From Deltaproteobacteria bacterium (lineage in GTDB: Bacteria > Desulfobacterota > GWC2-55-46 > UBA9637), in NCBI GenBank assembly GCA_030690165.1, contig JAUYHF010000007.1, positions 90,722 through 131,419 of the forward strand: 40,698 bases of DNA, in the 5' to 3' direction. Shown here piece after piece: positions 5,781 to 39,859 of the stretch; position 1 is the stretch's first letter; each line of letters opens with the position of its first letter. Under the pieces are notes generated by a model. That model worked only from the letters and a program-made list of their open reading frames with translations. It had not been told where the DNA came from and did not search any database. The position numbers and the translations under genes were made by a program.

Positions 5781-5842
5781 ACATTCGGGCTTTGTAGATA
5801 TTGTAAGGATCCCCAAGTTGATATTTTTACTGTTATTTTTAC

Positions 5843-5871: not shown

Positions 5872-5921
5872 CTACTCATAAAGATAGGTATTTTCAACTG
5901 TTGGTTTTTTTATTAAAGATT

Positions 5922-5969: not shown

Positions 5970-6014
5970 TTAGGGCAATTAAATAAAAAAATAAAAAAAG
6001 GGTAGGAGGTTACT

Positions 6015-7118: not shown

Positions 7119-7119
7119 T

Positions 7120-7596
7120 ATGCATCATCCGTACAGCACAATCTGTTTTTTTATTGCCATTTTTTTTGCAATGTTTATGCGCATGGATTTTGCGTGCGCG
7201 GAAATGGAAGGCCAGAATGTGGTTGTGATTGTCAATTATAACCTTCTCCATGAGAACTCGTTGCTGCCTTTGGAGATGACGCAGAAGGAGTTAAAAGATA
7301 TCTACCTGGGTGTCAAGGACAGCGAGAAGGGGGTAAAGCTCCTTCCTGCAGATCAGAAGGATAAAAAAATTTTTGGAGAGTTTCTTTCGCAATTCATTGG
7401 CATGTCAGCGACTTCGTATAAAAGCCACTGGGTCAAAAAATTATTTGCTTTAGGTGTCCCGGTCCCTAAGGTTATTGACGGGCATATAGAAGTGATAAAA
7501 TATGTTTCAGAGAATGCGGGCGCCATCGGCTATGTATGGAAAAGCGATATTAAGGGAAATGAAAAGGGGATACGCGCGGTAAAGATATCGCCGTAA
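7120..7596 (+). CDS. Small PstS-like periplasmic binding protein
   Basis: About 158 residues from ATG 7120, directly after the porin stop (an upstream in-frame TTG at 7108 overlaps the porin). An N-terminal hydrophobic segment (residues 8-24) ending in FACAE is a signal peptide. The mature part carries VVIVNYN, LTQKELKDIYLG-like and GAIGYVWKSD segments, typical of the short single-lobe phosphate ABC substrate-binding-like family. Proteins of this size lack the second lobe of PstS and are often found beside porins or sensors rather than ABC permeases. No permease or ATPase gene is present, so a sensing role with the following chemoreceptor is possible. Confidence 0.7.
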   Translation: MHHPYSTICFFIAIFFAMFMRMDFACAEMEGQNVVVIVNYNLLHENSLLPLEMTQKELKDIYLGVKDSEKGVKLLPADQKDKKIFGEFLSQFIGMSATSYKSHWVKKLFALGVPVPKVIDGHIEVIKYVSENAGAIGYVWKSDIKGNEKGIRAVKISP

Positions 7597-7611
7597 GACT
7601 GCGTAGATATA

Positions 7612-9696: not shown

Positions 9697-9878
9697 GGTT
9701 CACTTCAATAGCCGCGGCTGTCAATCTAATCCCCCTCTTTTATCAATCGATTTAAATAAATATCAACTGAGCCAAAGGTCTTATTTATTGACTATTGAAT
9801 AATTTGCAAATAAGAATTATCATAGCGTCGTATAGTTTAGAAACAAGGTCTTTACGGCCTGTTAATGAGGAGGGGATT

Positions 9879-10763: not shown

Positions 10764-10785
10764 CAACTTTGCAGTTAAGTTTTTC

Positions 10786-10817
10786 ATATTATCAAAGTAT
10801 AGATTTTGTGATAATAT
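10786..10817. promoter_or_regulatory. 9-bp perfect inverted repeat before the DUF433 gene, candidate operator
   Basis: ATATTATCA and TGATAATAT form a perfect inverted repeat with 14 bases between the arms, 37 bases upstream of the DUF433 start. Its right arm contains a GATAATAT sequence that could double as a -10 element. No T-run follows, so a terminator is unlikely. Autoregulation by a toxin-antitoxin pair is a plausible reading. Confidence 0.45.
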
Positions 10818-10854
10818 AAGAGGCGGTTAAATGCAATAAAAAGGGGGATTGAGT

Positions 10855-11091
10855 ATGGGAAAAGAGGATTTATTAAACCGTATTATTGTAAAACCTGAAG
10901 TGATGGTGGGAAAGCCGACAATAAGGGGATTGAGAATTACTGTGGAGCAGATATTAAAGGCGCTTGCAGGAGGAGTAACAGTTGAAGAACTATTAGAAGA
11001 CTATCCTGAACTTGAAAGGGAAGATATTCAGGCAGCCCTTATGTATGCTTCTGAACTCGTAAACGAAGAACAGGTCTTTGCTGTCCGTTAA
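10855..11091 (+). CDS. DUF433 antitoxin-like protein
   Basis: 78 residues from ATG 10855 (AAGGGGG seven bases before; an in-frame TTG at 10849 is less likely). The motif IIVKPEVMVGKPTIRGLRITVEQIL followed by GVTVEELLEDYPELEREDIQAAL is the DUF433 signature. It is a winged-helix-like fold found as the antitoxin or partner beside PIN-like DUF5615 proteins. The next gene is exactly such a partner, 15 bases downstream. A perfect inverted repeat lies upstream. Function as an antitoxin is inferred from family and context. Confidence 0.88.
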   Translation: MGKEDLLNRIIVKPEVMVGKPTIRGLRITVEQILKALAGGVTVEELLEDYPELEREDIQAALMYASELVNEEQVFAVR

Positions 11092-11106
11092 GAATAATCT
11101 CTTGCT

Positions 11107-11466
11107 ATGGCAATCAAACTAAAATTTCTTGTAGATGTTGGCGTTGGCAAGAAAGTAGAGAAATATCTTGCAGAAACAGGCTATGATGTAAAGTGCGTGA
11201 GGAATATAAACCCAAGGGCTGGTGATTCTGATATATTGCATCTGGCAGTTAAGGAAAACCGTATGGTAATCACAATGGATAAAGACTTTGGGGAACTTGT
11301 TTACAATTCAGGAAAATTGCATTCGGGGGTATTGATTTTGAGGCTTGAAGATGCTAATGGCGACAAGAAGGTAGAAACCGTAAAGAAAATACTAAGCGAA
11401 TATTCAGATAAGTTATACGGCAAGTTTTGTGTATTTCAGGGAGAAAGGTTAAGAATAAAAAACTAA
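11107..11466 (+). CDS. DUF5615 PIN-like protein, probable toxin
   Basis: 119 residues. DUF5615 proteins are small PIN-like (Mut7-C-like) folds paired with DUF433. Visible are the N-terminal strand KFLVDVGVGKKVEKYLAETGYDV, ARAGDSDILHLA-type central helix (GDSDILHLAVKENRMVIT) and MDKDFGELVY, with aspartates D37-type and D56-type positions that would form the acidic centre. The first acidic position reads FLVDVGVG where many relatives have FLxDExL, so one acidic residue seems replaced. It probably acts as an RNase-like toxin with the upstream DUF433 protein, but nuclease activity is not shown for most members. Confidence 0.85.
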   Translation: MAIKLKFLVDVGVGKKVEKYLAETGYDVKCVRNINPRAGDSDILHLAVKENRMVITMDKDFGELVYNSGKLHSGVLILRLEDANGDKKVETVKKILSEYSDKLYGKFCVFQGERLRIKN

Positions 11467-11496
11467 AGCGTCTCTGAATTAAAGGAGGAGGGCGCG

Positions 11497-13947: not shown

Positions 13948-13976
13948 GAAGATTATTCTTATTGCTCCGAAAATAG

Positions 13977-14102
13977 CCCATCCCCACCCTAACCCTCCCC
14001 TTGAATGGGAGGGAACAAAAAAGTCTCCTCTCCATCAGGGAGAGGATTAAAGCTTGCCCCCGAAGTATTTATCGGGGGGTGAGGGTGGGGTTAATTTTCA
14101 TC
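13977..14102. repeat. Long palindromic interspersed repeat, copy 1 (with a nested hairpin)
   Basis: Starts CCCATCCCCACCCTAACC and ends with GGGTGAGGGTGGGG then TTAATTTTCAT. Inside are the hairpins CTCCCCTTGAATGGGAG and CTCTCCATCAGGGAGAG, and the two ends are complementary. A further perfect 7-bp hairpin (CCCCCGA/TCGGGGG, 14057-14078) interrupts it. The other copy, without this insert, is at 32731-32830 in opposite orientation. It fills most of the gap between the WD40-caspase gene and the MAT gene. Confidence 0.85.
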
Positions 14103-14157
14103 CCCCTTTGTGAGCCAAAGGCTCGTTAGGGTTTCACCTGATAAAGAGGTATAACAA

Positions 14158-18165: not shown

Positions 18166-19863
18166 CTAATGTTCTTTGAACTTATTGATTACGAAATCAT
18201 GGTTTTTTTGTAGTTCTGTTGGCGTCCATTGGTTGTATGTAGTCAGTATGCGAACTGAGTTAGGAAATGTTTCAATATTCGACTTGAAATACTTTTCTTT
18301 CTTTTCTTTAAAATCATAACGGCCTTGGGAAGTATTCTTTTTTCTGCTCATGAGTACTAGATTCCCAAGTAGATGTGTCATTGAGTCCCTTTCTATATCA
18401 GTGAAATCTTTACACCATTGGCTGTTGGTTATCGGAGTTTGTGGCAATATGTGCTCAATGCTTATTTGCTCTGAGCCTGACTTCTTCTCAGAATGGCTTT
18501 GGAATAAATAATCAAGCTTAAGTAGAATGTACTTAGCCCATTTTCTTCCATATACCTTGCCTTCTAAATTCCTGAAATACGATTTGGTGTCGAAGTTAAA
18601 AACATTAGAAGCAATAACCTCATCCGATGTTGCGGAGGATTCAATTTTCTTGAGTATCGTATTCATATTTTCGATTCTGGAGGTAGGCGTTTCTTGTGCG
18701 ATCCAATCACCAGAAAATTTGTTATCAAGCTTTTTCAGAAATTCCAAAATACCTTTTGTTTTGAATTTGTCATAATAGGCCAAGAGTGGCGGGATCCAAT
18801 CCGATGCCTCGAATCCAGACTGCATAACTACAAGTAGATTATCAAAAGCCCAACTGTTGCATATATCATAATTGTTTTTCGAGAAAAGAGTAGAGTGATG
18901 TTCTTTGAATCGCTTGATATATTCAAGGGTCTCCTTTCCTTTTTGCAGGAGCGGCTTCTTATCCTTTCCTTGCGGTTCGTAAATTTTATCCTCAAACTCC
19001 TTTAATAGGTTTAGTCTTGCCTTATCTTTTACGAGAAGAGTTCTGATAAAAGACAAAAATCTATCAAAGTCGTCACCGAACTCGTTTTCAGTCTCAACCC
19101 AGAATTCACCGAATTTTTCCTGCTCACGAGCATCTTTTATTTGACCTAGATTAATTGCTTTAAGTATATCGCTATTCCGCAGTGGAATCCCACGCGCATT
19201 AAGAACAGTAAAAAGCCTGAATGCATCTTCAAGATCTTCAGTAGAAACATATATCATAAGAACATAGTTCAAGAGGAACTGGAAAAACTTGTCGACACCG
19301 ATTTTGTTGTCATTGTTGAAATATTTATGGATCTGAAGGATCGCACTCGCCATGTTCGATACGGAAACATCCCCTCCATTTTTCGCGTATTTTTCCAAGT
19401 CATCATGTTTTAATGTGCCTTTTAAAGCCATAACGTACTTCTCCATAAACTCCTGCACTTGTGGGCGAGCGGATATGATTCTCAAGCGTTCTGGAGTATT
19501 GGTATATGGATTCTTTTCCTGATAAACAAATTTGTGACAAGTGGTCCGTAGAATATCATCCTTAGCAAGGTCTCTTATTACAGCCATTAGAATAAGCAAG
19601 GATGTAAGACGTTGTTGGCCATCAAGCAAATCATTCTCGGGGAAATAAATGCCCTTATCTGGAACCGCTGGTCTATTCTGAAAAACTATAGATCCGACAA
19701 AGTATTGGCTGGTTGGATTGTTTTCTGCTGCATAGGCAATATCATCCAGCAGATCACTGATCTCCTCATTTCCCCAAACGTAAGGTCGCTGATATACCGG
19801 AATCGTAAACCACATATCGAAAACCTTTTTAACAAGGATCTTCTCACTCTTAATTTCACTCAT
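18166..19863 (-). CDS. DUF262/DUF1524 protein, GmrSD-like type IV restriction enzyme relative
   Basis: 565 residues. The N-terminal DUF262 (ParB/sulfiredoxin-like NTPase) motifs are clear: FTIPVYQRPYVWG near residue 18 and NDLLDGQQRLTSLLILM near residue 79. The C-terminal third is DUF1524, an HNH-type nuclease: ISIEHILPQTP near residue 470 and HLLGNLVLMSRKKN. Both halves occur in one chain as in fused GmrSD enzymes, which cut DNA with glucosylated hydroxymethylcytosine in phages. Other DUF262 proteins act in different defence roles, so phage defence is likely but the target is open. No methyltransferase is next to it. A short ORF with a strong ribosome site precedes it. Confidence 0.88.
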   Translation of the reverse strand: MSEIKSEKILVKKVFDMWFTIPVYQRPYVWGNEEISDLLDDIAYAAENNPTSQYFVGSIVFQNRPAVPDKGIYFPENDLLDGQQRLTSLLILMAVIRDLAKDDILRTTCHKFVYQEKNPYTNTPERLRIISARPQVQEFMEKYVMALKGTLKHDDLEKYAKNGGDVSVSNMASAILQIHKYFNNDNKIGVDKFFQFLLNYVLMIYVSTEDLEDAFRLFTVLNARGIPLRNSDILKAINLGQIKDAREQEKFGEFWVETENEFGDDFDRFLSFIRTLLVKDKARLNLLKEFEDKIYEPQGKDKKPLLQKGKETLEYIKRFKEHHSTLFSKNNYDICNSWAFDNLLVVMQSGFEASDWIPPLLAYYDKFKTKGILEFLKKLDNKFSGDWIAQETPTSRIENMNTILKKIESSATSDEVIASNVFNFDTKSYFRNLEGKVYGRKWAKYILLKLDYLFQSHSEKKSGSEQISIEHILPQTPITNSQWCKDFTDIERDSMTHLLGNLVLMSRKKNTSQGRYDFKEKKEKYFKSNIETFPNSVRILTTYNQWTPTELQKNHDFVINKFKEH

Positions 19864-27201: not shown

Positions 27202-27347
27202 TTGCGGACATTTATGTCCGCCGAATGGCCGACCTAAAGGTCGGCAATTACGTGGAAATGTAGCCGCGAACCTTTAGGTTCGCCAAAACTGCCGACCATA
27301 AAGGTCGGCAACTACGAAAAAATGTAGTTGCGGACATTTATGTCCGC
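27198..27347. repeat. REP array upstream of the RAYT gene
   Basis: Two full REPINs, at 27198-27251 (GTAGTTGC, hairpin GGACAT/ATGTCC, hairpin GCCGACCT/AGGTCGGC, ending AATTAC) and 27260-27315 (GTAGCCGC to CAACTAC), are followed by a half element at 27324-27347. All begin with GTAG and share the GCCGACC/GGTCGGC palindrome or the GGACAT/ATGTCC one. This is the arrangement called BIME in enterobacteria. The first element overlaps the purF stop codon. Confidence 0.9.
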
Positions 27348-27365
27348 TAATATTAGAAGACAAAA

Positions 27366-27830
27366 ATGCTATTCCCAAAAGTTCCAAGACTTAAAAAGTT
27401 TGATTATAAAGGTCCTTACGCATATTTCATTACCATTTGCACCAATTTTAAGAACCAGTATTTCGTTGAGAAGGAAACTGTTGAAGCGGTATTAAGTCTT
27501 TTGAAAGGTTGTGCATCTGATTACAGGTTTAAAATATTTGCCTATTGTTTTATGCCAGACCATCTTCATATCCTATTACAGGGAGAAGAAGATTCTTCTT
27601 TAAAAGAATTCATGAGGATATTCAAACAAAAGACAGAATGGTGTTTTAAGAAGAATAGACAAAAAGCACTGTGGCAAAAAAGCTATTATGACCATGTTGT
27701 GCGAAAGGATGAGGCTATTGAGGGAATCAGCCGATATATATTAGGAAACCCTGTTAGAAAAGGGATGGTCAATGATTTTAGAGATTATCCATTTTCAGGT
27801 TCAATGATTTTTGATATAAATAAAATGTAG
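27366..27830 (+). CDS. REP-associated tyrosine transposase (RAYT, Y1 family)
   Basis: 154 residues. The HUH-type Y1 fold is seen in YFITICTNFKNQYF, the metal-binding FMPDHLHILLQ near residue 62, and the catalytic-tyrosine helix GISRYILGNPVRKGMV near residue 122, followed by YPFSGS. RAYT proteins cut and move REP hairpins that carry GTAG, and are domesticated single-copy relatives of IS200/IS605. Arrays of exactly such REPs flank it on both sides. The TAG stop codon (27828-27830) is itself part of the first downstream REP. The ribosome-binding site is weak. Confidence 0.94.
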   Translation: MLFPKVPRLKKFDYKGPYAYFITICTNFKNQYFVEKETVEAVLSLLKGCASDYRFKIFAYCFMPDHLHILLQGEEDSSLKEFMRIFKQKTEWCFKKNRQKALWQKSYYDHVVRKDEAIEGISRYILGNPVRKGMVNDFRDYPFSGSMIFDINKM

Positions 27831-27946
27831 TTGCGGACATTTATGTCCGCCGAATGGCCGACCATAAAGGTCGGCAACTACGTGGAGAATGTAGCCGCTA
27901 ACCTTTATGTTCGCCAAAACTGCCGACCATAAAGGTCGGCGACTAC
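27827..27946. repeat. REP array downstream of the RAYT gene
   Basis: REPINs at 27827-27881 (GTAGTTGCGGACAT to GGCAACTAC) and 27891-27946 (GTAGCCGC to GGCGACTAC) repeat the upstream pair in the same order and orientation. The pair on the left and the pair on the right are nearly identical, so the RAYT gene sits between two copies of a two-REPIN unit. Confidence 0.9.
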
Positions 27947-27975
27947 AAAAGAATAATTAAAACAGGAGACGCATT

Positions 27976-29214
27976 ATGAAAAGGATATTTGGATATTTTT
28001 TAATTTTGAGTGTGCTTATTTTGCTTGCAGGGTGTGCAACAACAACGCCATTAATGAGTGCGATAGAAAGGGGTAATATTAATGCGGTAAAAGAATTGCT
28101 AAATAAGGGCGCTGATGTTAATGAAAAAGACAGTGGTGGCTGGACTCCTTTGCTGGGGGCGGCATATTGGGGCAACACAGAGGCTGCAAAGCTCTTAATA
28201 GACAAAGGCGCTGATGTTAATGCAACAAACAATCGTGGCTGGACTCCTTTGCTGAGGGCCGCATTGATGGGTAATACAGAAATTGCAAAGCTCCTTATAG
28301 AAAAAGGTGCTAACATAGATAAGGCTCTTGCAGCTATGGAGATAACTGCTATCGATATCGAGTACCCCCTCCACGCGGCAGAGGCAAAGGCTGGCATTAA
28401 ATTTCTTGAGAGGCTTAAACCAAAGCAGGAAGTTGCAAGCCAGCCATCTCAAGGCATCTCAAAAGAAGAACTCAAGACCATTGTGCAGGCTGCTGTTGAA
28501 GGCGCTAAGACCCAAAAACAAGAATCCAAGTCTCCTTCCGTACAATCAGACATTGACAAGCCTTCGTTCAATACAGCAGAAAAAATTATGGGAGACAACG
28601 ACCTCGCAGTGATTATCGGCATAGAAGGGTATCAGGGTATTCCAAAGTCAGATTATTCTTACGACGATGCAAATCTTGTGGGTGATTATGCAAAGGCCAT
28701 GGGCTTTAAGCCGAGAAACATAGAACTGCTTTTGGAGGAAAGGGCAACTAAATCGGCCATTGAAAAGATTATAAAGACATGGCTGCCTAACAAGGCAAAG
28801 CCCGACAGCAGGGTGTTTATCTACTATTCAGGACACGGTGCGCCTGAGCCAAAGACAGGAGACGCTTATATTGTTCCGTTTGACGGAGACCCGAACTATC
28901 TCTCTGATACAGGGTATCCTCTCAAGAGTCTTTATGACAGCCTCGGCAAATTGCAGGTTGCAGAGGTGACGGTTGTGCTTGACGCATGCTTCTCAGGAGC
29001 AGGAGGAAGGTCTGTTCTTGCAAAAGGCTCAAGGCCGTTGGTTATGATGGCAGATGTGTCTGTCCTTTCATCAAACATGGCAGTTCTTTCGGCAACACAA
29101 GGGACGCAGATTTCCACATCATCAACCGAGAAAGGGCATGGCGTGTTTACATACTATTTCTTGAAAGCTTTAAAAGACGGCAAAAAACGATTGCAGAGAT
29201 TTACGAATACATAA
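27976..29214 (+). CDS. Lipoprotein with ankyrin repeats and caspase-like domain (C-terminus frameshifted)
   Basis: 412 residues as read. Signal peptide with a classic lipobox LLAGC (Cys about 20). Residues about 25-115 hold three ankyrin repeats (GGWTPLLGAAYWGNTEAAKLLIDKGADVNA is one unit, quoted only in part). A low-complexity linker leads to the caspase fold from about residue 212: LAVIIGIEGYQGIPKSDYSYDDANLV, catalytic His287 in YYSGHGAPEPKTGDA and Cys338 in VLDACFSGAGG. The frame ends early after KDGKKRLQRFTNT. The conserved tail (IYEYIKP, NVQQSP) is found in the -1 frame from an A6 run at 29182-29187. No EF-hand loop is present, unlike its paralogues. Confidence 0.88.
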   Translation: MKRIFGYFLILSVLILLAGCATTTPLMSAIERGNINAVKELLNKGADVNEKDSGGWTPLLGAAYWGNTEAAKLLIDKGADVNATNNRGWTPLLRAALMGNTEIAKLLIEKGANIDKALAAMEITAIDIEYPLHAAEAKAGIKFLERLKPKQEVASQPSQGISKEELKTIVQAAVEGAKTQKQESKSPSVQSDIDKPSFNTAEKIMGDNDLAVIIGIEGYQGIPKSDYSYDDANLVGDYAKAMGFKPRNIELLLEERATKSAIEKIIKTWLPNKAKPDSRVFIYYSGHGAPEPKTGDAYIVPFDGDPNYLSDTGYPLKSLYDSLGKLQVAEVTVVLDACFSGAGGRSVLAKGSRPLVMMADVSVLSSNMAVLSATQGTQISTSSTEKGHGVFTYYFLKALKDGKKRLQRFTNT

Positions 29215-29318
29215 AGCCTTTGGTTGAAGACGAGGCAAAGCAGATGAATGTCCAGCAAAGCCCGAGCATAAATCCTGATGTTGAGAAATTAAAGGGACGG
29301 TTTGGGTTGAGGAAGTGA
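29182..29318 (+). pseudogene. Out-of-frame C-terminal tail of the ankyrin-caspase gene
   Basis: From the A6 run (two AAA codons in frame 0) the -1 frame encodes 43 residues beginning TIAEIYEYIKPLVEDEA and ending RFGLRK before a TGA at 29318. IYEYIKP and QQSP align with FNYIKP and EQSP at the same place in the caspases at 31207 and 33696, so this is the original C-terminus. Causes may be a one-base loss in the A run, a sequencing or assembly error, or slippage that yields a 447-residue product. Confidence 0.75.
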
Positions 29319-29355
29319 AGAGTTAAGGGGAGTTGTATTGAGATAGGTTGACACC

Positions 29356-30453
29356 CTAATGTAGTGTTACCAACGCTTCTTTACTTATAGATATTTTGCT
29401 CATAATAGATTGGACGGAAGCAGTCCAAGCGAATATTTTAGGGTTCTGATTATGAGACTCTATGTATTGTTTGATAACCTTAATAAGTTCTTTCAGATTT
29501 TTAAAAGATCCACGGCGGATTCTTTTTCTTGATATCTCGGCAAACCATCTTTCTACCATGTTTAACCAAGAGCTGGATGTTGGGATAAAATGAAGATAGA
29601 AACGTGGATGTCGTTGTAGCCATCTCTGAACCCGTGGATGTTTGTGTGTACCATAGTTATCAACTATTAAATGGAGATCCAGGTCTAATGGAGTTTTTGT
29701 ATCTATAATTTGCAGGAATCTGATAAATTCCTGATGTCTGTGGCGCGGCATGCAATCTCCAATTACCGTGCCATCGAGCATGTTTAATGCTGCGAATAAT
29801 GTTGTTGTGCCATGGCGGGTATAATCATGAGTTTGTCTTGCAGGAATGCCAGGCCGCAGAGGAAGTAATGGTTGTGTTCTTTCGAGCGCTTGAATCTGAC
29901 TTTTTTCGTCTACACATAAAACAAGCGCTTTGTCCGGGGGGTTCAGGTAAAGCCCGACAACATCATAAAGTTTTTCGAGGAATCGTTTGTCCCGGCTGAG
30001 TTTAAATGTCTCGACCAAATGAGGTTTTAAGTTGTGTTCTTTCCATATTCGTTGCACGGTTGCATTGCTGACTCTTTGTTCTTTGGCCATGGTTCTGGTG
30101 CTCCAGTGGGTCGCATCAGGAGGCGTTGTGTGTAAAGTGGCATTTACAATAGCCCTAACTTTCTTGTGGCTTACCCTTGGAATACGTCCTGGCCTGGGGG
30201 CGTCTTTCGTAAGCCCAGCCAATCGAAGAGCCAAAAAACGTTCCCGCCACAATTGTACGGTAGGGCGGGAAATTTTAAGCATCGCCGAGATTTCTTGATT
30301 TTCGTACTTATTGGATGCCATTTGAATTATCCGAGATCTTTGAACAATACGAAAGGGCATCTTTTTACTCTTTGCCCATGCGTCTATTGTAAACCGCTCT
30401 TTTTCTGTCAATATAATGGTTTCTGCTACTCTACACATAAAACCATTATACAT
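29356..30453 (-). CDS. IS630-family transposase
   Basis: 365 residues, apparently complete. The N-terminal helix-turn-helix region (RSRIIQMASNKYENQEISAML, LKISRPTVQLWRERF) and a winged-helix part (STRTMAKEQRVSNATVQRIWKEH) bind the ends. The DDE catalytic core is visible as D in ALVLCVDEKSQIQ, D in LHLIVDNYGTHKH and E in SSSWLNMVERWFAEIS. The coding frame runs through the left inverted repeat, and its TAG stop uses the TA of the target duplication plus one flanking base, so the exact C-terminus depends on the insertion site. Alternative start at MCRVAETIIL is possible. Confidence 0.93.
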   Translation of the reverse strand: MYNGFMCRVAETIILTEKERFTIDAWAKSKKMPFRIVQRSRIIQMASNKYENQEISAMLKISRPTVQLWRERFLALRLAGLTKDAPRPGRIPRVSHKKVRAIVNATLHTTPPDATHWSTRTMAKEQRVSNATVQRIWKEHNLKPHLVETFKLSRDKRFLEKLYDVVGLYLNPPDKALVLCVDEKSQIQALERTQPLLPLRPGIPARQTHDYTRHGTTTLFAALNMLDGTVIGDCMPRHRHQEFIRFLQIIDTKTPLDLDLHLIVDNYGTHKHPRVQRWLQRHPRFYLHFIPTSSSWLNMVERWFAEISRKRIRRGSFKNLKELIKVIKQYIESHNQNPKIFAWTASVQSIMSKISISKEALVTLH

Positions 30454-30493
30454 AATATTTTATATAAGTAAAGTTATTTATGTAACACTACAC
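29359..30493 (-). mobile_element. IS630-family insertion sequence
   Basis: Ends ATGTAGTGTTAC (left) and, on the other strand, GTGTAGTGTTAC (right) form terminal inverted repeats with one mismatch over 12 bases. TA flanks both sides (29357-29358 and 30494-30495), the expected IS630/Tc1-mariner target duplication. One intact transposase gene fills the element. It separates the ankyrin-caspase gene from an RHH/PIN pair. Confidence 0.88.
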
Positions 30494-30533
30494 TAATGAT
30501 GTAAGATATAAGATGTAGTCGGAGGTGAGGATT

Positions 30534-30788
30534 ATGGAAACGTCAAAGCACAGAACACAGATATCTCTTGAAGACTGGCAGTATCAGGTGCTGCAAGAAA
30601 TGTCAAAAAAGACAAAGAAAAGTCTTTCCGGCATCATCAGGGATTTGATAAGAGAAAAATTCTCAAAAGAGACTTTAAAAACAAAAGAAGATGCTCTCTG
30701 GGGCATAATAGGTCTTGGCGCAGGCAATGGTTCTCCTGTGGCACGTGAACACGACAGATTCCTTTATGCAAAAAGGATGAAGAAATGA
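30534..30788 (+). CDS. Ribbon-helix-helix antitoxin
   Basis: 84 residues from ATG 30534 with GGAGGTGAGG before it. The N-terminal strand HRTQISLEDWQYQVLQEMS and the following helices KKTKKSLSGIIRDLIREKF form an RHH DNA-binding fold. The C-terminal GLGAGNGSPVAREHDRFLY is a typical toxin-contact tail of VapB-like antitoxins. It overlaps the PIN toxin gene by 4 bases. The IS630 right end lies 40 bases upstream, so the insertion may have displaced its native promoter. Confidence 0.88.
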   Translation: METSKHRTQISLEDWQYQVLQEMSKKTKKSLSGIIRDLIREKFSKETLKTKEDALWGIIGLGAGNGSPVAREHDRFLYAKRMKK

Positions 30789-31186
30789 AAAGGTTATTTG
30801 TTGATACAGGGGCTTGGTATGCCCTCGTTGACAAGAACTACCCTGACCATAAAAGCGCCGAACATTTTTTGAGAAACAATAAAATTCCGCTTCTAACAAC
30901 AAATTTTGTATTTGATGAGACCATTACACTAATCCGAAGCCGCCTTGGATGGAACATCTCTAAGGATTTTGGGCAAAAACTCAAGCATAGCAAATTTGCA
31001 AGCATTGTTGCAGTAAAATATGAGGATGAAGAAAAGGCATGGGAGATTTTCCTGAAATACAAAGATAAGGATTTCAGCTATACGGATTGCACAAGTTTTG
31101 CGGTGATGCAGAGATTGAAGATGGATACGGCATTTTCTTTTGACAGCCATTTTCAGATAATGAGGTTTCAGGTAATGCCCGCATAA
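30785..31186 (+). CDS. PIN-domain toxin (VapC-like)
   Basis: 133 residues. PIN acidic residues are seen in LFVDTGAWYALVD (D7), TNFVFDETITLIR (E46 region), FSYTDCTSFAVM (D99 region) and AFSFDSHFQIM (D122 region), the pattern of Mg-dependent RNases such as VapC that cut tRNA or rRNA. It is coupled to the upstream RHH antitoxin. It is the third toxin-antitoxin-like pair in the window and the last gene before two closely related caspase genes. Confidence 0.9.
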   Translation: MKRLFVDTGAWYALVDKNYPDHKSAEHFLRNNKIPLLTTNFVFDETITLIRSRLGWNISKDFGQKLKHSKFASIVAVKYEDEEKAWEIFLKYKDKDFSYTDCTSFAVMQRLKMDTAFSFDSHFQIMRFQVMPA

Positions 31187-31206
31187 TTTTTTTCAGGAGG
31201 TGCATT

Positions 31207-32700
31207 ATGAAAAGGATATTAGATAAATATTGGAAGTGTCCCCCAATTATTCTTTCACGCATAGCGGGGGGTTGCCTTTTACTGGGCTGGCTCTTTGCTG
31301 GCTGTGTCAGTCTTCCCGAGCATCAAGACCCGTTGGCCGGCTTGAGGCCGGATGCGTCCGCTCAAAATACCTTCAAGAACCTGACCGTTGGCATCATTTT
31401 ATCGGAGAATTCCAAGAAAACCGCCGAATACATGGAGAGGTGGCAGAAAACGTTTCGAGTTCCTGTCAATATAGAAGCAATCTTCGGAGAAGTCATAGCC
31501 GCATTGCAAAGGAATTTCAAATCAGCGGTGCGGTTGGACACGATCGAGGATGCCCGGGCTGCTCCTACGGATCTGACGGCGGTGATCGACATCACAGCGA
31601 AAATGCCCGGTAGCATCTTTGAGGAGAATTGGTTCAACGCCAGCGTGGTCTTGTTGGCTCCGGACCAAACACGGATAGATACGGTTACTGGCCGAATAGA
31701 TAGATTCATCGTCCCCGACGGGACAAGAGAGATGGACGGTCTGCGCAAGGGTGCAGCTGAAGCGAGCCTCAAATTAGAGAACGCGCTGCTGTCCTCCAAA
31801 AAGGCCGCGGCTTTCGCTCTTGCAAAATCGAACGCCCCCAAGGCGGCGATAGCTCAGACATTTGCACCCCAAGCGGCTCCCGAACACAAAGTGACTTCGT
31901 CTGATGTCGACGAACTTCCTGCAATAAAAGCAAAACCCAACAAAAACTCCTATGCCATTGTAATTGGCATTGAACAATACCGTCAGAAACTTCCAAAGGC
32001 TGATTTTGCGACACATGACGCACAGACAATGACCGAATATCTAACAAAGGTGATGGGTTATCCAGAGGAGAATGTTGTTACGCTAATAAATGAACATGCT
32101 GCAAAGAGCGATTTTGAAAAATACTTTGAGAAATGGCTGCCGAATAATGCAGAGAAAGACGGCACAGTCTTTATATACTACTCAGGACACGGAGCACCTA
32201 ACCCAAAGACAGGGGATGCATTTCTTGTGCCTTATGACGGAGACCCGGCATTTATTGACCAGACAGGATATTCTCTGAAAAGGCTTTATGACAATCTTGG
32301 AAAACTTCAGGCAAAAGAAATCATAGTTGCCCTTGATTCGTGTTTTTCAGGCGCAGGCGGAAGGAGCGTAATAGCGAAAGGCGCAAGGCCGCTGGTTATG
32401 AATATGGAAAGCTTTACTATTCCTCAGAAGATATCAGTTCTTTCAGCCTCATCAGGAGACCAGATAAGTTCAACATACGAGGAAAAAGGGCATGGGCTGT
32501 TTACATACTTTATGTTGAAGGGAATCAAAGGAGAAGGCGATACAAATGGAGATGGGACAGTAGAGATAAGAGAACTATTCAATTACATCAAACCACAGGT
32601 AGAGCGGATTGCAAGAAAGGTCTATAACAACGAACAATCTCCGCAGTTGATTGCGCCATCGGAAAAGCAGGAGATGTTTTTGATAGAAAAGACAAAATGA
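31207..32700 (+). CDS. Caspase-domain lipoprotein with unknown N-terminal domain
   Basis: 497 residues. After a short basic extension, a hydrophobic segment with lipobox LFAGC (Cys about 36) suggests export and lipid anchoring. Residues about 55-210 form an unrecognised alpha/beta domain (LTVGIILSENSKKTAEYME, IFGEVIAALQRNF, ASVVLLAPDQTRIDTVTG). From SDVDELPAIKAKPNKNSYAI (about residue 236) comes the caspase module, with His328 in YYSGHGAPNPKTGDAF and Cys379 in LDSCFSGAGG. An EF-hand-like loop is at 445-456 (DTNGDGTVEIRE). The module is about 88% identical by hand count to that of the gene at 33696 while the N-termini differ. The AGGAGGT site precedes the ATG. Confidence 0.9.
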   Translation: MKRILDKYWKCPPIILSRIAGGCLLLGWLFAGCVSLPEHQDPLAGLRPDASAQNTFKNLTVGIILSENSKKTAEYMERWQKTFRVPVNIEAIFGEVIAALQRNFKSAVRLDTIEDARAAPTDLTAVIDITAKMPGSIFEENWFNASVVLLAPDQTRIDTVTGRIDRFIVPDGTREMDGLRKGAAEASLKLENALLSSKKAAAFALAKSNAPKAAIAQTFAPQAAPEHKVTSSDVDELPAIKAKPNKNSYAIVIGIEQYRQKLPKADFATHDAQTMTEYLTKVMGYPEENVVTLINEHAAKSDFEKYFEKWLPNNAEKDGTVFIYYSGHGAPNPKTGDAFLVPYDGDPAFIDQTGYSLKRLYDNLGKLQAKEIIVALDSCFSGAGGRSVIAKGARPLVMNMESFTIPQKISVLSASSGDQISSTYEEKGHGLFTYFMLKGIKGEGDTNGDGTVEIRELFNYIKPQVERIARKVYNNEQSPQLIAPSEKQEMFLIEKTK

Positions 32701-32730
32701 AACATCCATGACCTTCGGTCACAAGGGAAC

Positions 32731-32830
32731 ATGAAAATTAACCCCACCCTCACCTTAATCCTCTCCCTGAGGGAGAGGAAACTTTTTCGTTCCCTCCCCT
32801 TCAAGGGGAGGGTTAGGGTGGGGATGGGGT
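32731..32830. repeat. Long palindromic interspersed repeat, copy 2 (reverse orientation)
   Basis: The reverse complement reads CCCATCCCCACCCTAACCC, hairpin CTCCCCTTGAAGGGGAG, hairpin CTCTCCCTCAGGGAGAG, then GGTGAGGGTGGGG and TTAATTTTCAT. It matches 13977-14102 nearly base for base but lacks the nested 7-bp hairpin found there. It lies between a caspase gene and the second DUF4384 gene. Confidence 0.87.
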
Positions 32831-32847
32831 AAAAGAGGTATTTTCAG

Positions 32848-33663
32848 ATGAAAAAAATTGTCTTAATAATAATTCTACTCCTTATTCCACTCTTATCCCA
32901 TGCCTCTGAAAACCCGGTCTGGGTAGAGGCTGACGGCGAGGCTGTCATGGGCGAGATTGAGACCCAGAAGGAGGTAAAAGAACGGGCAAAGATAGACGCT
33001 CAAAACAAGGCTGTTGCGGAGGCGGTTGGGACTTTTATAAAATCCCACACCCTTGTCTCAAACAGCCAACTTGCAGAGGATTTAATATATGCCTCTGTCA
33101 GGGGAAAGATTGAAAAAACTGAGATAATAAAAGAAGGATGGGATGAAAAAGATAGAAACCTTTACAAGGTCAAACTCAAAGCCCTTATCAAACCCGTATA
33201 TCCCGAAAAAGGCGAGGGCATATCCATAAAACTCTCCCTTTCAAAAACAGATTTGAGAGAGGGCGATGAGGTAAAGATATTTTATCAGGCAAGCAGCGAC
33301 TGTTATATCTATATCTTTTCAGTCGCAGCAGACGGTTCTGTGACGCTGCTTCTGCCCAATTCAATCAATGCTGATAACAGCGTCAAGGCAGGCAAGGGTT
33401 ATCAGTTTCCTTCTGATGAAAGCAAAATAAAATTGCAGGCGCAGTTTCTGCCGGAGTATAAGGAAAAGACAGCAGAGGAGAAAATAAAGATTATCGCAAC
33501 GAGGCAGAAAGAGGATATAATCCCATTAGGATTTCAGCAAGGATTTTTCAAGATGTATGACGCAAAATCCACAGGCATGATAAGCGATTTGGTAAAGAGG
33601 CTTAACCAGCTTGAGCCTGCTGATTGGGCAGAGGCAACCGCGGTGTATGTGCTGAAGAGGTAA
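32848..33663 (+). CDS. Secreted DUF4384 domain protein (second copy of this architecture)
   Basis: 271 residues with a signal peptide (hydrophobic residues 4-17, cleavage near SHAS). An LPP20/FlgT-N-like region (VWVEADGEAVMGEI, QKEVKERAKIDAQNKAVAEA) is followed from about residue 125 by the DUF4384 domain: SIKLSLSKTDLREGDEVKIFYQ, CYIYIFSVAADGSVTLLLPN and GYQFPSDESKIKLQ. It parallels the protein at 9879 in domain order and length but is clearly divergent. It sits between two caspase genes and 32 bases before the second of them, so joint expression and a role with the caspases are likely. The domain's ligand is unknown. Confidence 0.83.
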   Translation: MKKIVLIIILLLIPLLSHASENPVWVEADGEAVMGEIETQKEVKERAKIDAQNKAVAEAVGTFIKSHTLVSNSQLAEDLIYASVRGKIEKTEIIKEGWDEKDRNLYKVKLKALIKPVYPEKGEGISIKLSLSKTDLREGDEVKIFYQASSDCYIYIFSVAADGSVTLLLPNSINADNSVKAGKGYQFPSDESKIKLQAQFLPEYKEKTAEEKIKIIATRQKEDIIPLGFQQGFFKMYDAKSTGMISDLVKRLNQLEPADWAEATAVYVLKR

Positions 33664-33695
33664 AGGTATTTAAATTTACCAGTAGAAGGCGGATT

Positions 33696-35174
33696 ATGAG
33701 AAAGATATTTGATAAATATGGGAAGTGTTCCCCCTTTATTCTTGTGAAAAGCAATTTCCTATCATTGAGGCGCAGTGCGCTTTGTCTGGCCGCGATGGGG
33801 TTGTTCTTCGGGGGCTGCTCCACGACTATCCACATGCGCTACCAGCCGAGTTCGGCGGCCCGACCGCTGGATCTCGATGTGAAGCCCCGTATTTTCTTGG
33901 ACCAGGTCGAGGACCGCACCGGAGGAGGACAGATAGCCGGGCTGGGCGGGAGGGGAGGGTTCGTTCCCTCGATCTCCGAAAGCCTTCGGGAAGCTCTGGA
34001 GGTGGAATTCGGACGGCTGGGGATCCCTCTGGTCGCAAGCAGGGCCAAGGCAGATGCCGCCCTCAGCGTTGCGGTAACGATGGCCAGCACTCGCGGAACC
34101 CCGCAGGGTCTCACGGCGGACCTCGCCTCCATCCTCACCGTGAAAGGCTCCAGGGGCGAGAACCTTTGGGAGAACACTCTGCTCGGAAGCGGGATCAGCC
34201 AAGGCTACAACGTTTCACCGTGGGGCCCCGCCTTCACGGCGGCTCTGGCCGATCTGATGTCCAAGATAGGGCCGGTCTTCCAATCTCAGGACGTCGTCTC
34301 CAAGATACTGGCAGCTTCCTCTGTCTCCGCGGGCGACGCCGTCGGTCGAAAGGCGCGAGCCGAGCCGCCCGTCGTGCGTTCCGATGTTGACGAGCTTCCC
34401 TCAATAAAAGCAAAACCAAACAAAAACTCATACGCCATAGTCATCGGCATTGAGCAATATCGTCAGAAACTTCCCAAGGCTGATTTTGCGGTAGCTGATG
34501 CAAAGACAATGACAGAATATCTCACAAAGGTAATGGGCTATCCAGAAGAGAATGTTGTAACGCTTACAAATGAACACGCTGCAAAGAGCGATTTTGAGAA
34601 ATACTTTGAAAAGTGCTTGCCTAACAATGTAGAAAAGGATGGTTCTGTATTTATCTACTATTCAGGACACGGTGCGCCGAATGTGAAGACAGGGGACGCC
34701 TTCTTAGTGCCTTATGACGGAGACCCGTCATTCATTGCCGAGACCGGATATTCTTTAAAAAGACTCTATGAAGCCCTCGGAAAACTCCCGGCAAAAGAAA
34801 TCATCGTTGCACTTGATTCGTGTTTTTCAGGCGCAGGGGGGAAATCTGTCATTGCAAAAGGAGCGAGGCCGCTTGTAATGACAATGGAAAGTTTAGCAAT
34901 CCCTTCAAAAGTAGGAGTCCTTTCTGCCTCATCAGGAGATCAGATAAGTTCCACATATGAAGAAAAAGGGCATGGATTATTTACATACTTTATGCTCAAA
35001 GGCTTAAAAGGCGATGGCGATGTCAATGGAGATGGAAAAGTTGAATTAGGAGAACTGTTTAACTATATCAAGCCGCAGGTGGAGCGCATTGCCAGAAAAA
35101 CTTATAATAATGAACAGTCGCCGCAACTAATTGCGCCGAATGAATTGATGAAACAGAAACTAATGGAAAAATGA
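33696..35174 (+). CDS. Caspase-domain lipoprotein with GC-rich foreign N-terminal domain
   Basis: 492 residues from ATG 33696. A hydrophobic segment ends in FFGGC (Cys about 44), a probable lipobox. Residues about 50-215 form a domain (LDVKPRIFLDQVEDRTGGGQ, SISESLREALEVEFGRLGIP, ADAALSVAVTMAS) that recalls YajG-type outer-membrane lipoproteins, at low confidence. From SDVDELPSIKAKPNKNSYAI comes the caspase module with His325 and Cys376 (LDSCFSGAGG) and an EF-hand-like loop 442-453 (DVNGDGKVELGE). Bases 33841-33960 are about 62-72% GC by line count, while the caspase part is near 40%, so the N-terminal piece is foreign to the rest. A pair of large overlapping frames in this part is an effect of the GC content. 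Confidence 0.9.
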   Translation: MRKIFDKYGKCSPFILVKSNFLSLRRSALCLAAMGLFFGGCSTTIHMRYQPSSAARPLDLDVKPRIFLDQVEDRTGGGQIAGLGGRGGFVPSISESLREALEVEFGRLGIPLVASRAKADAALSVAVTMASTRGTPQGLTADLASILTVKGSRGENLWENTLLGSGISQGYNVSPWGPAFTAALADLMSKIGPVFQSQDVVSKILAASSVSAGDAVGRKARAEPPVVRSDVDELPSIKAKPNKNSYAIVIGIEQYRQKLPKADFAVADAKTMTEYLTKVMGYPEENVVTLTNEHAAKSDFEKYFEKCLPNNVEKDGSVFIYYSGHGAPNVKTGDAFLVPYDGDPSFIAETGYSLKRLYEALGKLPAKEIIVALDSCFSGAGGKSVIAKGARPLVMTMESLAIPSKVGVLSASSGDQISSTYEEKGHGLFTYFMLKGLKGDGDVNGDGKVELGELFNYIKPQVERIARKTYNNEQSPQLIAPNELMKQKLMEK

Positions 35175-35187
35175 GAAAAATAACAAT

Positions 35188-35242
35188 GTAGATGCGGACA
35201 TTTATGTCCGCCGAATGGCCGACCATAAAGGTCGGCGGCTAC
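35188..35242. repeat. GTAG-type REPIN between a caspase gene and pyrE
   Basis: Runs GTAGATGCGGACAT/ATGTCCGC, CGAATG spacer, GCCGACCAT/AAGGTCGGC, ending GGCTAC. It is a further copy of the same REPIN found on either side of the RAYT gene, 7.3 kb away, and follows the caspase stop by 13 bases. Confidence 0.9.
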
Positions 35243-35265
35243 GGAAAAAAGGGAACAAATAATCT

Positions 35266-36572: not shown

Positions 36573-36589
36573 TAAAATTGGAGGTTTTT

Positions 36590-37651
36590 ATGCGTAAAAT
36601 ATTCTTTATCGTTTTAGTTTTGATTTCTGCCTACTGTTTACTGCCTGATGCTTACTGTTATGCAGGTATTGGCAATCTATCAAAAGGGAGCGGCGCAGTC
36701 TATTACAAGGCAAAGGGAGAAAAGAAATGGGCTGCCGCATCAGCAGGGATGGAGATAAATGAAGGGGACAGGGTAAAGACAGGGAGCGACGGGAGGATTG
36801 AGCTTTTACTGCAGGACGGCAGCAGGCTTACCATAGGAAATAATACAGAGATGGAGATAACAAAATTTTTACTGGATAAAGACAGGCGCAGCGCAACCAT
36901 ATTTGTTCAGGGAAAGTTAAGGGCAGCTATTGCAAAATTTTTCGGCAGAACCAATATGTGGGTTAAGACCCCTACTGCGGTTGCAGGTGTAAAAGGAACT
37001 GACTTTATTGTGATGAACGAAGGCAAGGCAAATGTCTTGTTCGGTCAGGAAGGAACTGTAGAGGTTAAGGGTAATGATAAAGAATCAGTATCGCTGTCAC
37101 CCGATACAATGACAGAGAACACGCAGGGCCATACGCCGATTGCCCCTGTTAAGATAGAACCAAACACACCTCTATCAGATGCAAGGAAACAGCTTGAGGC
37201 AGTGACAAATGTTGATGCCCCTGTGGAATGGCAGGAGGCGGGAAAACTCCCGCAAATCCTTGCAAGATGGAATATGAATTACGGCCATTATCTTGCCGAC
37301 AGCGGCAAATACAAAGAGGCCCTTGAGGTTTTTCAGATTGCGGCGGATCTGACCGATATACCTGAGATAGTAGCTGAGAGCCGCGTCCAGAGAGGCACTG
37401 TTTATTCAAGGAATTTAAGCCTCTATCAGGAGGCGCTGAAAGAATATCAGGCTGTGCTTGACAAATATCCGCAAATGCCGCAGGCTGAAAATGCCCTCTT
37501 TTCCATTGGCATGATATACAAGGATATGGGTGAAAAGGAAAAGGCAGGAGAATATCTGCAAAGATATCTTAAGCAGTATCCTCAGGGTAAGCACACATCC
37601 ACTGTGGAAACACTAATCAAAGAACTTGAAAAGGAAGAAGGCAAACAGTGA
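36590..37651 (+). CDS. FecR-domain protein with C-terminal TPR repeats
   Basis: 353 residues from ATG 36590 (GGAGG seven bases before). Signal peptide of about 27 residues (LVLISAYCLLPDAYC). Residues about 30-170 match the periplasmic FecR-type domain: GAVYYKAKGEKKW, EINEGDRVKTGSDGRIELLLQDGSRLTI and WVKTPTAVAGVKGTDF. From about 225 come TPR-like repeats (GHYLADSGKYKEALEVFQIAADL, YQEALKEYQAVLDKYPQMPQAENALFSIGMIYKDMG). Such FecR-TPR proteins are commonly next to CHASE2 cyclase or kinase genes, as here, and are thought to give a periplasmic signal-sensing partner; iron uptake is not implied. The stop is within a base of an inverted-repeat element. Confidence 0.88.
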   Translation: MRKIFFIVLVLISAYCLLPDAYCYAGIGNLSKGSGAVYYKAKGEKKWAAASAGMEINEGDRVKTGSDGRIELLLQDGSRLTIGNNTEMEITKFLLDKDRRSATIFVQGKLRAAIAKFFGRTNMWVKTPTAVAGVKGTDFIVMNEGKANVLFGQEGTVEVKGNDKESVSLSPDTMTENTQGHTPIAPVKIEPNTPLSDARKQLEAVTNVDAPVEWQEAGKLPQILARWNMNYGHYLADSGKYKEALEVFQIAADLTDIPEIVAESRVQRGTVYSRNLSLYQEALKEYQAVLDKYPQMPQAENALFSIGMIYKDMGEKEKAGEYLQRYLKQYPQGKHTSTVETLIKELEKEEGKQ

Positions 37652-37728
37652 ACCCAGTTAGAAACTCATTGTTAATGAATTATCTGCTTTTGGCGGGTAT
37701 CTTTAAGAGAGGAGGTTTCTAACGGGGT
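37652..37728. repeat. Inverted-repeat element CCCAGTTAGAAA...TTTCTAACGGGGT, copy 2
   Basis: ACCCAGTTAGAAA and TTTCTAACGGGGT are imperfect complements at the two ends of a 77-bp stretch that fills the whole gap between the FecR gene and the cyclase gene. The cyclase GTG start lies inside the right end, and its GGAGG site is in the element. The other copy is at 23523-23583 before purL. Confidence 0.65.
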
Positions 37729-39859
37729 GAAAGAAAGGGCAGGATTTGTAGCCAATAAATTCTGGGTTTTTCTATTCTGGGGCATTCTGGCCTCTTCACT
37801 ATCTTTGATTATTTATGTGGCGAAGCCTTCTTTTATAGAGGGCGTTGACCGGACAGCCGGCGACGCCAGATTTAAGGCGAGGGGGGAGGCGGCCACTGCT
37901 GATGAAGTTATTATTGTTGCTATAGATGAAAAGAGCGTAAATGAGCTTGGCAGATGGCCGTGGCCCAGGACGACCATGGCAAGGCTTATAGATAATCTTG
38001 CGCCTGCAAAGGTTGTTGGCCTTGACATAGTTTTTTCCGAGCCTGAGACATTAGAAAGGGACAATGCCCTTGGAAACGCTGTAAAGAAGGCAGGAAATGT
38101 AGTCCTTGGTTATTTCTTAAGGGAAGAGGCAACGAACGAGCCTGATAAGAAGGCTATAAATCAAATTAACCGCTCAAAGATAAAGATCGTAAAAATGCTT
38201 GAAAGCACCTCCTCTGTTCCTATCGTTGATCTCCCGGGCATAGAGACAAATATACCTGTAATAGGAAAAGACGCCTCAGGTTTTGGCCTCTTTAATATAA
38301 TTCCGGATGGAAATGACGGCATTCTAAGAAGATCACAGATTATATTTCTCTACAAGGGCGACATATATCCCTCCCTTGCGCTTGAGGCGCTGAGAAAATA
38401 TCTAAAAGGCGATGTTGTATTGCAGATTGCGCCTTACGGTGTGGATGGCCTTTCTATAAACGACAGGGAACTTCCTGTAGATGAGGGAGGCAGTTTTCAG
38501 CTTAACTTTTACGGCAAAGGCGGAACATTCAAGACATATTCTGCGGTAGATATTATAAAGGGGAGGCTGCCAATAGAGGCAATCAAAGGAAAGATAGTCT
38601 TTGTAGGGGCAACAGAAAAGGGGATATATGACTTAAGGGTTACACCATTAGATCCCATCTATCCGGGGGTTGAGGTTCATGCAACAGTTGCGGCAAATGT
38701 ATTGCAGAAAAGGTTTTTAATACATGACAGCAGAGTTGTTGCCCTTGATATATTTTTTATAATCTTTTTATCTGTCGGCCTGTGCGCATCCCTTACATGG
38801 GTTCACAGGACATTCATCAGTCTTATTATATTTTTGGCATTCCTTTCACTGCACACTGCCGTCAATTTTTATCTCTTCTACTCCTATAATCTTGTGGCAA
38901 GCGCGATATATCCTTTCATAGGCATATCCCTTTCTTATCTCCTTGCAGAGGCGTACAGGAATATCGTTGTTGAAAGCAAGGGGCGCTATCTGAAAAAGGC
39001 ATTCGGCACCTATGTCTCCCCTGATCTTGTATCAGAGATACTAAAAGACCCTGACAGATTAAAGCTCGGTGGGGAGAAGAAGGAGATAACCATACTTTTT
39101 TCCGATATCAGGGGGTTCACATCATTATCTGAAAAGCTTACTCCTGAAAAGTTAGTAGCTGTATTGAACGAATATTTAAGCCCCATGACCAGGATAGTTC
39201 TGGAAGAGAAGGGGACTCTGGATAAATATATAGGCGACGCCATAATGGTTATCTGCAATGCGCCTATTGACCTTCCTGACCATCCGCAGAAGGGTTGCAA
39301 AATTGCTATTAGATGGATTAAAGAATTGGAAAAATTAAACGGCGACTGGAAGGAAAAAGGTTATCCATCCATAGCTATAGGTATCGGCATCAATACCGGC
39401 GATGCTGTTGTCGGCAACATGGGCGCAGACCTTCGTTTTGATTATACCGCCATCGGCGACAATGTGAATCTTGCTTCAAGGCTTGAGGGTATGAACAAGA
39501 CATACGGCACAGCCATAATTGTGAGTGAAAGCACCCAGAGATTGACGACTAATGATTTCCTTTTCCGCGAGCTTGATATGGTGCGGGTAAAAGGAAAGGA
39601 AACCCCGGTTGCGATTTATGAATTAATGGATTTACTTCCGGGTGATGTCTTAAAGAAAGAACTTGCAAACTCTTTTGCAGAGGCCTTATCTCTTTATAAA
39701 AGTCGCATGTTTGAAGAGGCAAAGTCCGGGTTTGATGCCATACTTGATAAATTTCCCAAAGACGGCCCTAGCGCTTTATATGCGCAAAGATGCTTAGATT
39801 GCCTTAAATTGCCTCCGCCGTCTGACTGGGACGGCGTTTATGTTGCAAAGACAAAATAG
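37727..39859 (+). CDS. CHASE2 domain class III adenylate cyclase
   Basis: 710 residues from GTG 37727. TM1 is at about 12-31, a large extracytoplasmic CHASE2 domain spans about 32-335 (SVNELGRWPWPRTTMARLIDNL, DASGFGLFNI, GKIVFVGATEKGIYD), three membrane helices lie at about 340-405 and a class III cyclase domain at about 450-630. Metal-binding aspartates are D460 in FSDIRGFTS and D504 in DKYIGDAIM. Lys500 before the second aspartate and the FDYTAIGDNVNLASRLE motif favour ATP, hence cAMP, over GTP. A TPR-like tail ends the protein. It would convert an external signal into cAMP; the FecR-TPR protein upstream is the likely partner. Confidence 0.93.
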   Translation: MKERAGFVANKFWVFLFWGILASSLSLIIYVAKPSFIEGVDRTAGDARFKARGEAATADEVIIVAIDEKSVNELGRWPWPRTTMARLIDNLAPAKVVGLDIVFSEPETLERDNALGNAVKKAGNVVLGYFLREEATNEPDKKAINQINRSKIKIVKMLESTSSVPIVDLPGIETNIPVIGKDASGFGLFNIIPDGNDGILRRSQIIFLYKGDIYPSLALEALRKYLKGDVVLQIAPYGVDGLSINDRELPVDEGGSFQLNFYGKGGTFKTYSAVDIIKGRLPIEAIKGKIVFVGATEKGIYDLRVTPLDPIYPGVEVHATVAANVLQKRFLIHDSRVVALDIFFIIFLSVGLCASLTWVHRTFISLIIFLAFLSLHTAVNFYLFYSYNLVASAIYPFIGISLSYLLAEAYRNIVVESKGRYLKKAFGTYVSPDLVSEILKDPDRLKLGGEKKEITILFSDIRGFTSLSEKLTPEKLVAVLNEYLSPMTRIVLEEKGTLDKYIGDAIMVICNAPIDLPDHPQKGCKIAIRWIKELEKLNGDWKEKGYPSIAIGIGINTGDAVVGNMGADLRFDYTAIGDNVNLASRLEGMNKTYGTAIIVSESTQRLTTNDFLFRELDMVRVKGKETPVAIYELMDLLPGDVLKKELANSFAEALSLYKSRMFEEAKSGFDAILDKFPKDGPSALYAQRCLDCLKLPPPSDWDGVYVAKTK

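Follow-up and report, generated by a model that had tools for sequence, protein, structure and literature searches.

The window analysed here (40,698 nucleotides; positions 90,722–131,419 of contig C7 in G000, the 2.2 Mb draft genome of a Deltaproteobacteria bacterium) encodes four caspase-like proteases of the C14 family, all predicted lipoproteins, and two secreted proteins with the uncharacterised domain DUF4384. Five Peptidase_C14 matches occur genome-wide, four of them inside the window. Most work on bacterial caspase homologues has treated them as death or defence proteases of the cytoplasm; those described here appear to be set in the cell envelope.

Caspase and DUF4384 genes of the window

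Three of the caspase genes are clustered and the fourth, of the WD40 type, lies 14 kb upstream of the cluster, all on the forward strand. The cluster comprises an ankyrin-caspase (27976–29214; Peptidase_C14 E-value 3.5e-15), caspase N1 (31207–32700; 1.5e-15) and caspase N2 (33696–35174; 5.2e-15 for the frame 33624–35174), the most likely start of the last being the ATG at 33696, not 33624; the WD40-caspase (11497–13947; 4.8e-17) combines PF00400 with PF00656. All four pass the curated PF00656 cut-off of 21.4 bits with scores of 56–63 bits, and the two DUF4384 proteins, likewise on the forward strand, pass that of PF14326 (27 bits) at 99.1 and 75.4 bits. DUF4384-B (32848–33663; E = 3.8e-21) has a FlgT_N-like N-terminal part (a weak match, E = 0.0045, below the Pfam cut-off) followed by DUF4384; a fold search with this protein gave scattered beta-sandwich matches of low TM-score and was not used. 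DUF4384-A (9879–10763; E = 1.5e-28; listed open reading frame 9795–10763) likely starts at the ATG at 9879, which is preceded by the ribosome-binding-like GAGGAGGGG. A sequence-only reading of this DNA had placed both secreted DUF4384 proteins with the cluster, which is so for DUF4384-B; DUF4384-A lies with the WD40-caspase, and housekeeping genes keep the two caspase/DUF4384 groups apart.

That the three cluster genes and the WD40-caspase encode C14 proteases with a His/Cys pair, as first read from the letters alone, is borne out by the Pfam matches and by a 21-protein alignment, in which the His (SGHG/AGHG) and the Cys (D-x-C) are invariant, all four window caspases included. A contig scan confirmed at least 547 relatives, from which 78 loci were kept, titled Nitrospirae, Deltaproteobacteria and other desulfur-reducing groups, Nitrospinota, Elusimicrobia and one Nitrosomonadales; their C14 domains retain the His in 122/124 cases and the D-x-C motif in 124/124. 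Ratios of nonsynonymous to synonymous substitution rates against the nearest relatives (0.05–0.06 for the C14 domain, about 0.06 for that of N1, 0.13 for DUF4384-B) point to strong purifying selection on the C14 domain. A conserved acidic linker joins the N-terminal module to this domain, and the D-x-C motif is compatible with cleavage after Arg or Lys, suggesting a preference for a basic residue at P1.

Among NCBIfam models, the C14 domains matched NF047832 (EACC1-associated caspase) best, at 51–89 bits against a cut-off of 140. A PADLOC scan of five proteins returned generic caspase-domain matches only, with the N-terminal third of PDLC02987 ("caspase") aligned, and called no partner genes and no full anti-phage caspase system. 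Assignment to a named defence system was rejected on these two grounds, the sub-threshold NF047832 score and the missing PADLOC partners. A separate candidate defence gene, for a GmrSD-type restriction endonuclease (PF03235 and PF07510; PADLOC Orf5/HEC-06 matches), lies at 18166–19863 on the reverse strand.

The ankyrin-caspase gene is frameshifted near 29183–29190: the window's GGCAAAAAACGATTGCAGAG is one base shorter than the GGCAAGAAAAACATCGCAGAG found in relatives, and the last ~45 residues are lost. They continue in another frame up to 29318, and this out-of-frame remnant (29190–29318, forward strand) reads TIAEIYEYIKPLVEDEAKQMNVQQSPSINPDVEKLKGRFGLRK, as in relatives; the His/Cys pair is retained. 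The missing base could reflect either a mutation or an assembly error, and the gene, with ~45 C-terminal residues lost, may be inactive or mis-assembled. Programmed frameshifting at the A6 run is not favoured, since the extra base in relatives keeps their genes in frame.

The fifth C14 gene of the genome is on contig C8 (L066:1442-6175, L066:10855-12132), near a lipoprotein-type gene cluster with GNA1162-like, CsgG-like, LPP20-like and TPR/SLH members.

Export signals and N-terminal modules

Export was called by our own rule-based signal scan together with reading of the lipobox. The window caspases carry LAGC (27976), LPSC (11497), FAGC (31207) and FGGC (33696), of which LAGC alone is standard; LPSC has Pro at −2, and the Phe at −3 of FAGC and FGGC is non-standard, yet recurrent within the lineage. 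With such atypical residues in three of the four boxes, lipidation judged from these single genes would be doubtful, and counts over the family appear to settle it better. Among complete caspases in the 78 loci, 80/117 have a lipoprotein-type signal and 19/117 another signal or a membrane helix, which makes 99/117 with an export signal; the corresponding counts for background genes are 30/528 and 128/528, an excess of lipoprotein-type signals in caspases with p of about 1e-47 when shared ancestry is ignored. By inspection, several of the 18/117 caspases lacking an export call are overlong or truncated start choices. None of the 80 lipoprotein-type caspases has Asp at +2, as expected for outer-membrane sorting under a rule that derives from E. 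coli, and the proteins are probably located in the outer membrane, facing the periplasm. Both DUF4384 proteins of the window have, by inspection, Sec-type, non-lipid signals. Lipoprotein-type signals had been claimed for all four window caspases, and the family counts agree, with the reservation that three of the four boxes are atypical; placement in the cytoplasm, which would have told against the sequence-only reading, is contradicted by the export signals of 99/117 relatives.

The N-terminal parts of the window caspases are an ankyrin module (27976), a WD40 module (11497) and two modules, N1 and N2, that lack a Pfam match. Two unrecognised domains had been noted before, and by Pfam they remain so; the fold of N2 can now be likened to outer-membrane lipoproteins. 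An AlphaFold2 model of this module (33741–34400; mean predicted local distance difference test score, pLDDT, 79) gave Cj1090c, DUF330, CsgG, GNA1162, LptE, PqiC and PelC as best Foldseek matches in the PDB (E-values of 1e-6 to 1e-3, TM-scores up to 0.63 by target), which suggests that N2 folds like outer-membrane or periplasmic lipoproteins. The N1 module, common to eight other caspases, has no Pfam match; PDB sequence-profile searches with the N1 and N2 N-domains yielded nothing credible, and in one made with the complete caspase alignment ankyrin matches crowded out the rest.

Across the 78 loci, 51 of 108 N-modules are ankyrin and the remainder fall into more than 20 groups, among them PDZ/S41 (an S41-PDZ protease with a CtpB-like N-domain), thioredoxin (DsbA-like), LamG, PEGA, DUF2846, CARDB and a weak, sub-threshold BamE. 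Caspases at the same locus have an N-module in common in only 18/65 pairs, with C14 domains 34–90% identical; N1 and N2 of the window are 86% identical in the C14 domain and unrelated at their N-termini. On a quick C14 tree with weak inner support, the label "ankyrin" or "other" changes at least 26 times, and shuffled labels give 36; modules therefore seem to be partly inherited and partly exchanged.

Insertion sites, arrays and the putative DUF4384 partner

The two caspase groups occupy two insertions. Insertion A (5781–14157), between queH and metK, holds the porin, PstS-like, MCP, DUF4384-A and WD40-caspase genes and separates queH from metK by 8.4 kb; the distance is 15–37 bp in three relatives (G001, G004 and G005) that have neither C14 nor DUF4384 and none of the insertion A genes at this site. 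In G003, G007 and G009 the same site holds a caspase with DUF4384, and the WD40-caspase has a relative in G006 that is 62% identical, adjoins DUF4384-A and carries the lipobox LISC. Insertion B (27202–35265), between purF and pyrE, holds the three-caspase cluster in a gap of 8.1 kb that measures 81 bp (G004), 389 bp (G005) and 52 bp (G008) in relatives that have neither family. In other relatives these two sites are occupied by caspase genes, DUF4384 genes or both, and presence is patchy even within one genus, G001 lacking all and G002 and G003 having caspases. A multi-member, envelope-anchored caspase set with a kept neighbourhood, as proposed in the sequence-only reading, is thus recovered in related genomes as repeated neighbourhoods, not scatter. 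To call it self-contained in one region overstates the case: the window's caspases sit in two distinct insertions, the genome has a fifth caspase on a different contig, and one member is frameshifted.

Further genes lie in or beside the insertions. The porin-like, PstS-like and MCP genes of the queH–metK insertion (6015–9696) are absent at empty sites. The purF–pyrE insertion includes an IS200-like Y1 transposase (27366–27830) and an IS630 transposase (29356–30453), and a PIN-domain (VapC-type) gene at 30785–31186 adjoins the caspases; similar PIN proteins occur near arrays in L078, L079 and L081. FecR-TPR and CHASE2-adenylate cyclase genes (36578–39859) are conserved beside pyrE with or without caspases. 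They were rejected as members of the system, because they are kept beside empty purF–pyrE sites and their presence tracks that of the caspases weakly or not at all: CHASE2 occurs in 33/59 related genomes, including all 11 with caspases and also 22/48 others (p = 0.001), and FecR in 36/59, with no significant link (p = 0.17).

Elsewhere the caspases form tandem arrays of up to six genes. In Elusimicrobia they adjoin bacterial-microcompartment (BMC) genes for EutN/CcmL, BMC shell protein and aldehyde dehydrogenase (L148:7576-11285; also L095, L137, L144 and L145), the EutN gene of L148 overlapping the caspase end. A nucleotidyltransferase-like gene that reads like the MNT toxin–antitoxin type lies near arrays in L073, L075, L077, L079, L092, L094, L098 and L118. 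Phage records gave no match, and plasmid records at most 31% identity among the matches listed; a phage- or plasmid-borne origin was rejected on this comparison.

The gene that most often accompanies the caspases encodes DUF4384, by far their commonest non-caspase neighbour (29 loci against 8 for the next, the nucleotidyltransferase-like gene). In 24 of the 29 cases it is the gene immediately after a caspase, and in 8 the two genes overlap by 4 bp. Among 59 related genomes, C14 is present in 11, DUF4384 in the same 11 and neither in 48 (p = 3.6e-12). Over 247 genomes of the phylum, 38 have both, 17 DUF4384 only, 29 C14 only and 163 neither (odds ratio 12.6, p = 5e-14), and in the C14-positive genomes 38 of 65 DUF4384 domains are within 3 kb of C14, six of them fused in one frame. 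The expectation that DUF4384 would track the caspases was thereby upheld at both scales.

Candidate roles and known systems

Taken together, these observations are consistent with a modular, envelope-anchored sensor–protease system with a shared DUF4384 partner, a reading to which we give a probability of about one half. The caspases would be exported, mostly lipid-anchored and probably held in the outer membrane facing the periplasm, where the variable N-module (ankyrin, WD40, lipoprotein fold, PDZ/S41, thioredoxin, LamG, PEGA, DUF2846 and others) may recognise envelope partners or conditions. The near-constant C14 domain would convert recognition into a single shared output, proteolysis after Arg or Lys, and the secreted DUF4384 protein would serve as the array's shared partner, be it substrate, scaffold or regulator. 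The purpose could be an envelope stress response or defence. What the sequences themselves show is the architecture: export signals, intact catalytic residues, exchange of modules, arrays, DUF4384 genes that adjoin and co-occur with caspases, accessory insertion sites and purifying selection.

Several points weigh against this reading. The partner is not obligatory, because 17/55 DUF4384 genomes of the phylum have no C14 match and 29/67 C14 genomes no DUF4384; the latter, about half, further weakens the claim of self-containment. No DUF4384 appears within the fetched flanks of 49/78 loci, it occurs without caspases in Thermus, Deinobacterium and Thermotoga, and the WD40-caspase belongs to another C14 subgroup with a DUF4384 of its own. 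The 78 loci were selected by similarity to this C14 subfamily and do not sample caspases at random; presence and absence in draft genomes were scored with a first-look filter that found 4/5 of the C14 copies of G000; and the co-occurrence statistics ignore shared ancestry, their p-values overstating independence.

The strongest alternative, which we nevertheless regard as unlikely, is envelope housekeeping or stress proteolysis, with caspases responsible for the maturation, turnover or quality control of outer-membrane proteins and N-modules that select the client. Envelope maintenance typically involves modules such as PDZ, S41, thioredoxin and the lipoprotein fold, and the strong purifying selection, the chromosomal sites beside housekeeping genes and the Elusimicrobia arrays, which adjoin BMC and not defence genes, would fit such a role; however, a system that is patchy within one genus and has a frameshifted copy looks accessory and dispensable, and module exchange this fast is unusual for maintenance.

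Less likely than this, and doubtful, is defence by integrated decoys, in which N-modules mimic envelope targets of phages, toxins or rivals and damage to the decoy frees the caspase, leading to cell death or arrest. Such mimicry sits poorly with the 51/108 modules that are ankyrin repeats, ordinary binding scaffolds, although others do resemble envelope proteins (the LptE/PqiC/CsgG/GNA1162-type fold, S41-PDZ, DsbA-like thioredoxin, PEGA, weakly BamE). In favour of defence, modules are often swapped while the effector stays constant, the genes occur patchily at their insertion sites, and insertion-sequence, VapC and GmrSD genes lie close by; the want of a close phage or plasmid copy, the generic PADLOC matches and the sub-threshold BamE speak against it. 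Lower again we place an envelope immune or danger-sensing repertoire, with interchangeable envelope-protein decoys on a lipid-anchored caspase, expandable arrays and one DUF4384 partner; it would be formally like the plant receptors with integrated decoys, here acting in the periplasm.

It is very unlikely that unrelated lipoprotein-caspase genes were merely gathered by duplication and insertion hot spots, with DUF4384 functionally unlinked: the 86% identity of N1 and N2 in the C14 part marks recent duplicates, transposases lie in the insertion and both sites are recurrent insertion sites, but the DUF4384 linkage recurs at unrelated places in the chromosomes of several phyla, tight overlaps and fusions included, and each of the 59 relatives has either both families or neither. 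Least likely of all is kin interaction or contact-dependent killing, with caspases as toxins shown to neighbours and DUF4384 as immunity protein, for although an exported protease adjoins a small exported gene with an overlapping start and surface fratricide via exported metacaspases has been suggested (PMC3501461), the proteins are lipid-anchored, no recurrent secretion or delivery partner was found among the neighbours in the 78 loci, many caspases lack DUF4384, which is then no obligatory immunity gene, and the protease is constant where the N-terminus varies, the reverse of polymorphic toxins. The sequence-only reading had offered a signalling or kin-interaction system; we found no support for either, nor for a substrate or joint action of the proteins, and the present data do not separate defence, envelope stress response and housekeeping.

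Under the sensor–protease reading, a recurrent envelope-set protease that exchanges only its front end would give a handle on the role of exported caspases, and DUF4384 would be linked, in several phyla, to a protease pathway that experiments can probe. Exported bacterial metacaspases with a possible extracellular or surface role were noted in 2012 by Asplund-Samuelsson et al. (PMC3501461), which qualifies the earlier statement that caspase homologues are mostly cytoplasmic. The 46 single-helix sequences there likewise have C14 behind an N-terminal signal-like helix; that survey is without the lipoboxes, arrays, module exchange and DUF4384 of the present system. Orthocaspases and prokaryotic metacaspases resemble the window proteins in caspase fold family, as judged by sequence, in the His/Cys dyad and in the joining of C14 to WD40 or repeat domains (PMC3501461), and, according to PMC6426788, D-x-C fits an acidic pocket and cleavage after basic residues. 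Typical orthocaspases are single, cytosolic or linked to NACHT/AAA, whereas here we find lipid-anchored tandem arrays built on one conserved C14 domain, with numerous exported N-modules and a DUF4384 protein linked to them in the operon. Caspase–DUF4384 fusions are reported from cyanobacteria and alphaproteobacteria (PMC7475262, PMC6426788); they unite in one protein the two domains that here mostly belong to a caspase and a separate secreted downstream gene.

The EACC1-associated caspases of conflict systems (NF047832, Kaur et al.) are the best, sub-threshold NCBIfam match, and neither an EACC1 partner nor an NTPase was found in the caspase neighbourhood. Polymorphic toxin systems with caspase-like domains (PMC3482391) share modular exported proteins with exchangeable parts, but in those systems a constant N-terminal trafficking part precedes a variable C-terminal toxin, with immunity genes next to it downstream, whereas here C14 is constant and the N-terminus variable. 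Searches of open full-text papers, with subscription papers and preprints outside their scope, found no description of lipid-anchored caspase arrays with a DUF4384 partner; relative to the literature searched, the array-and-partner arrangement appears new, and exported caspases and DUF4384 fusions were already known.

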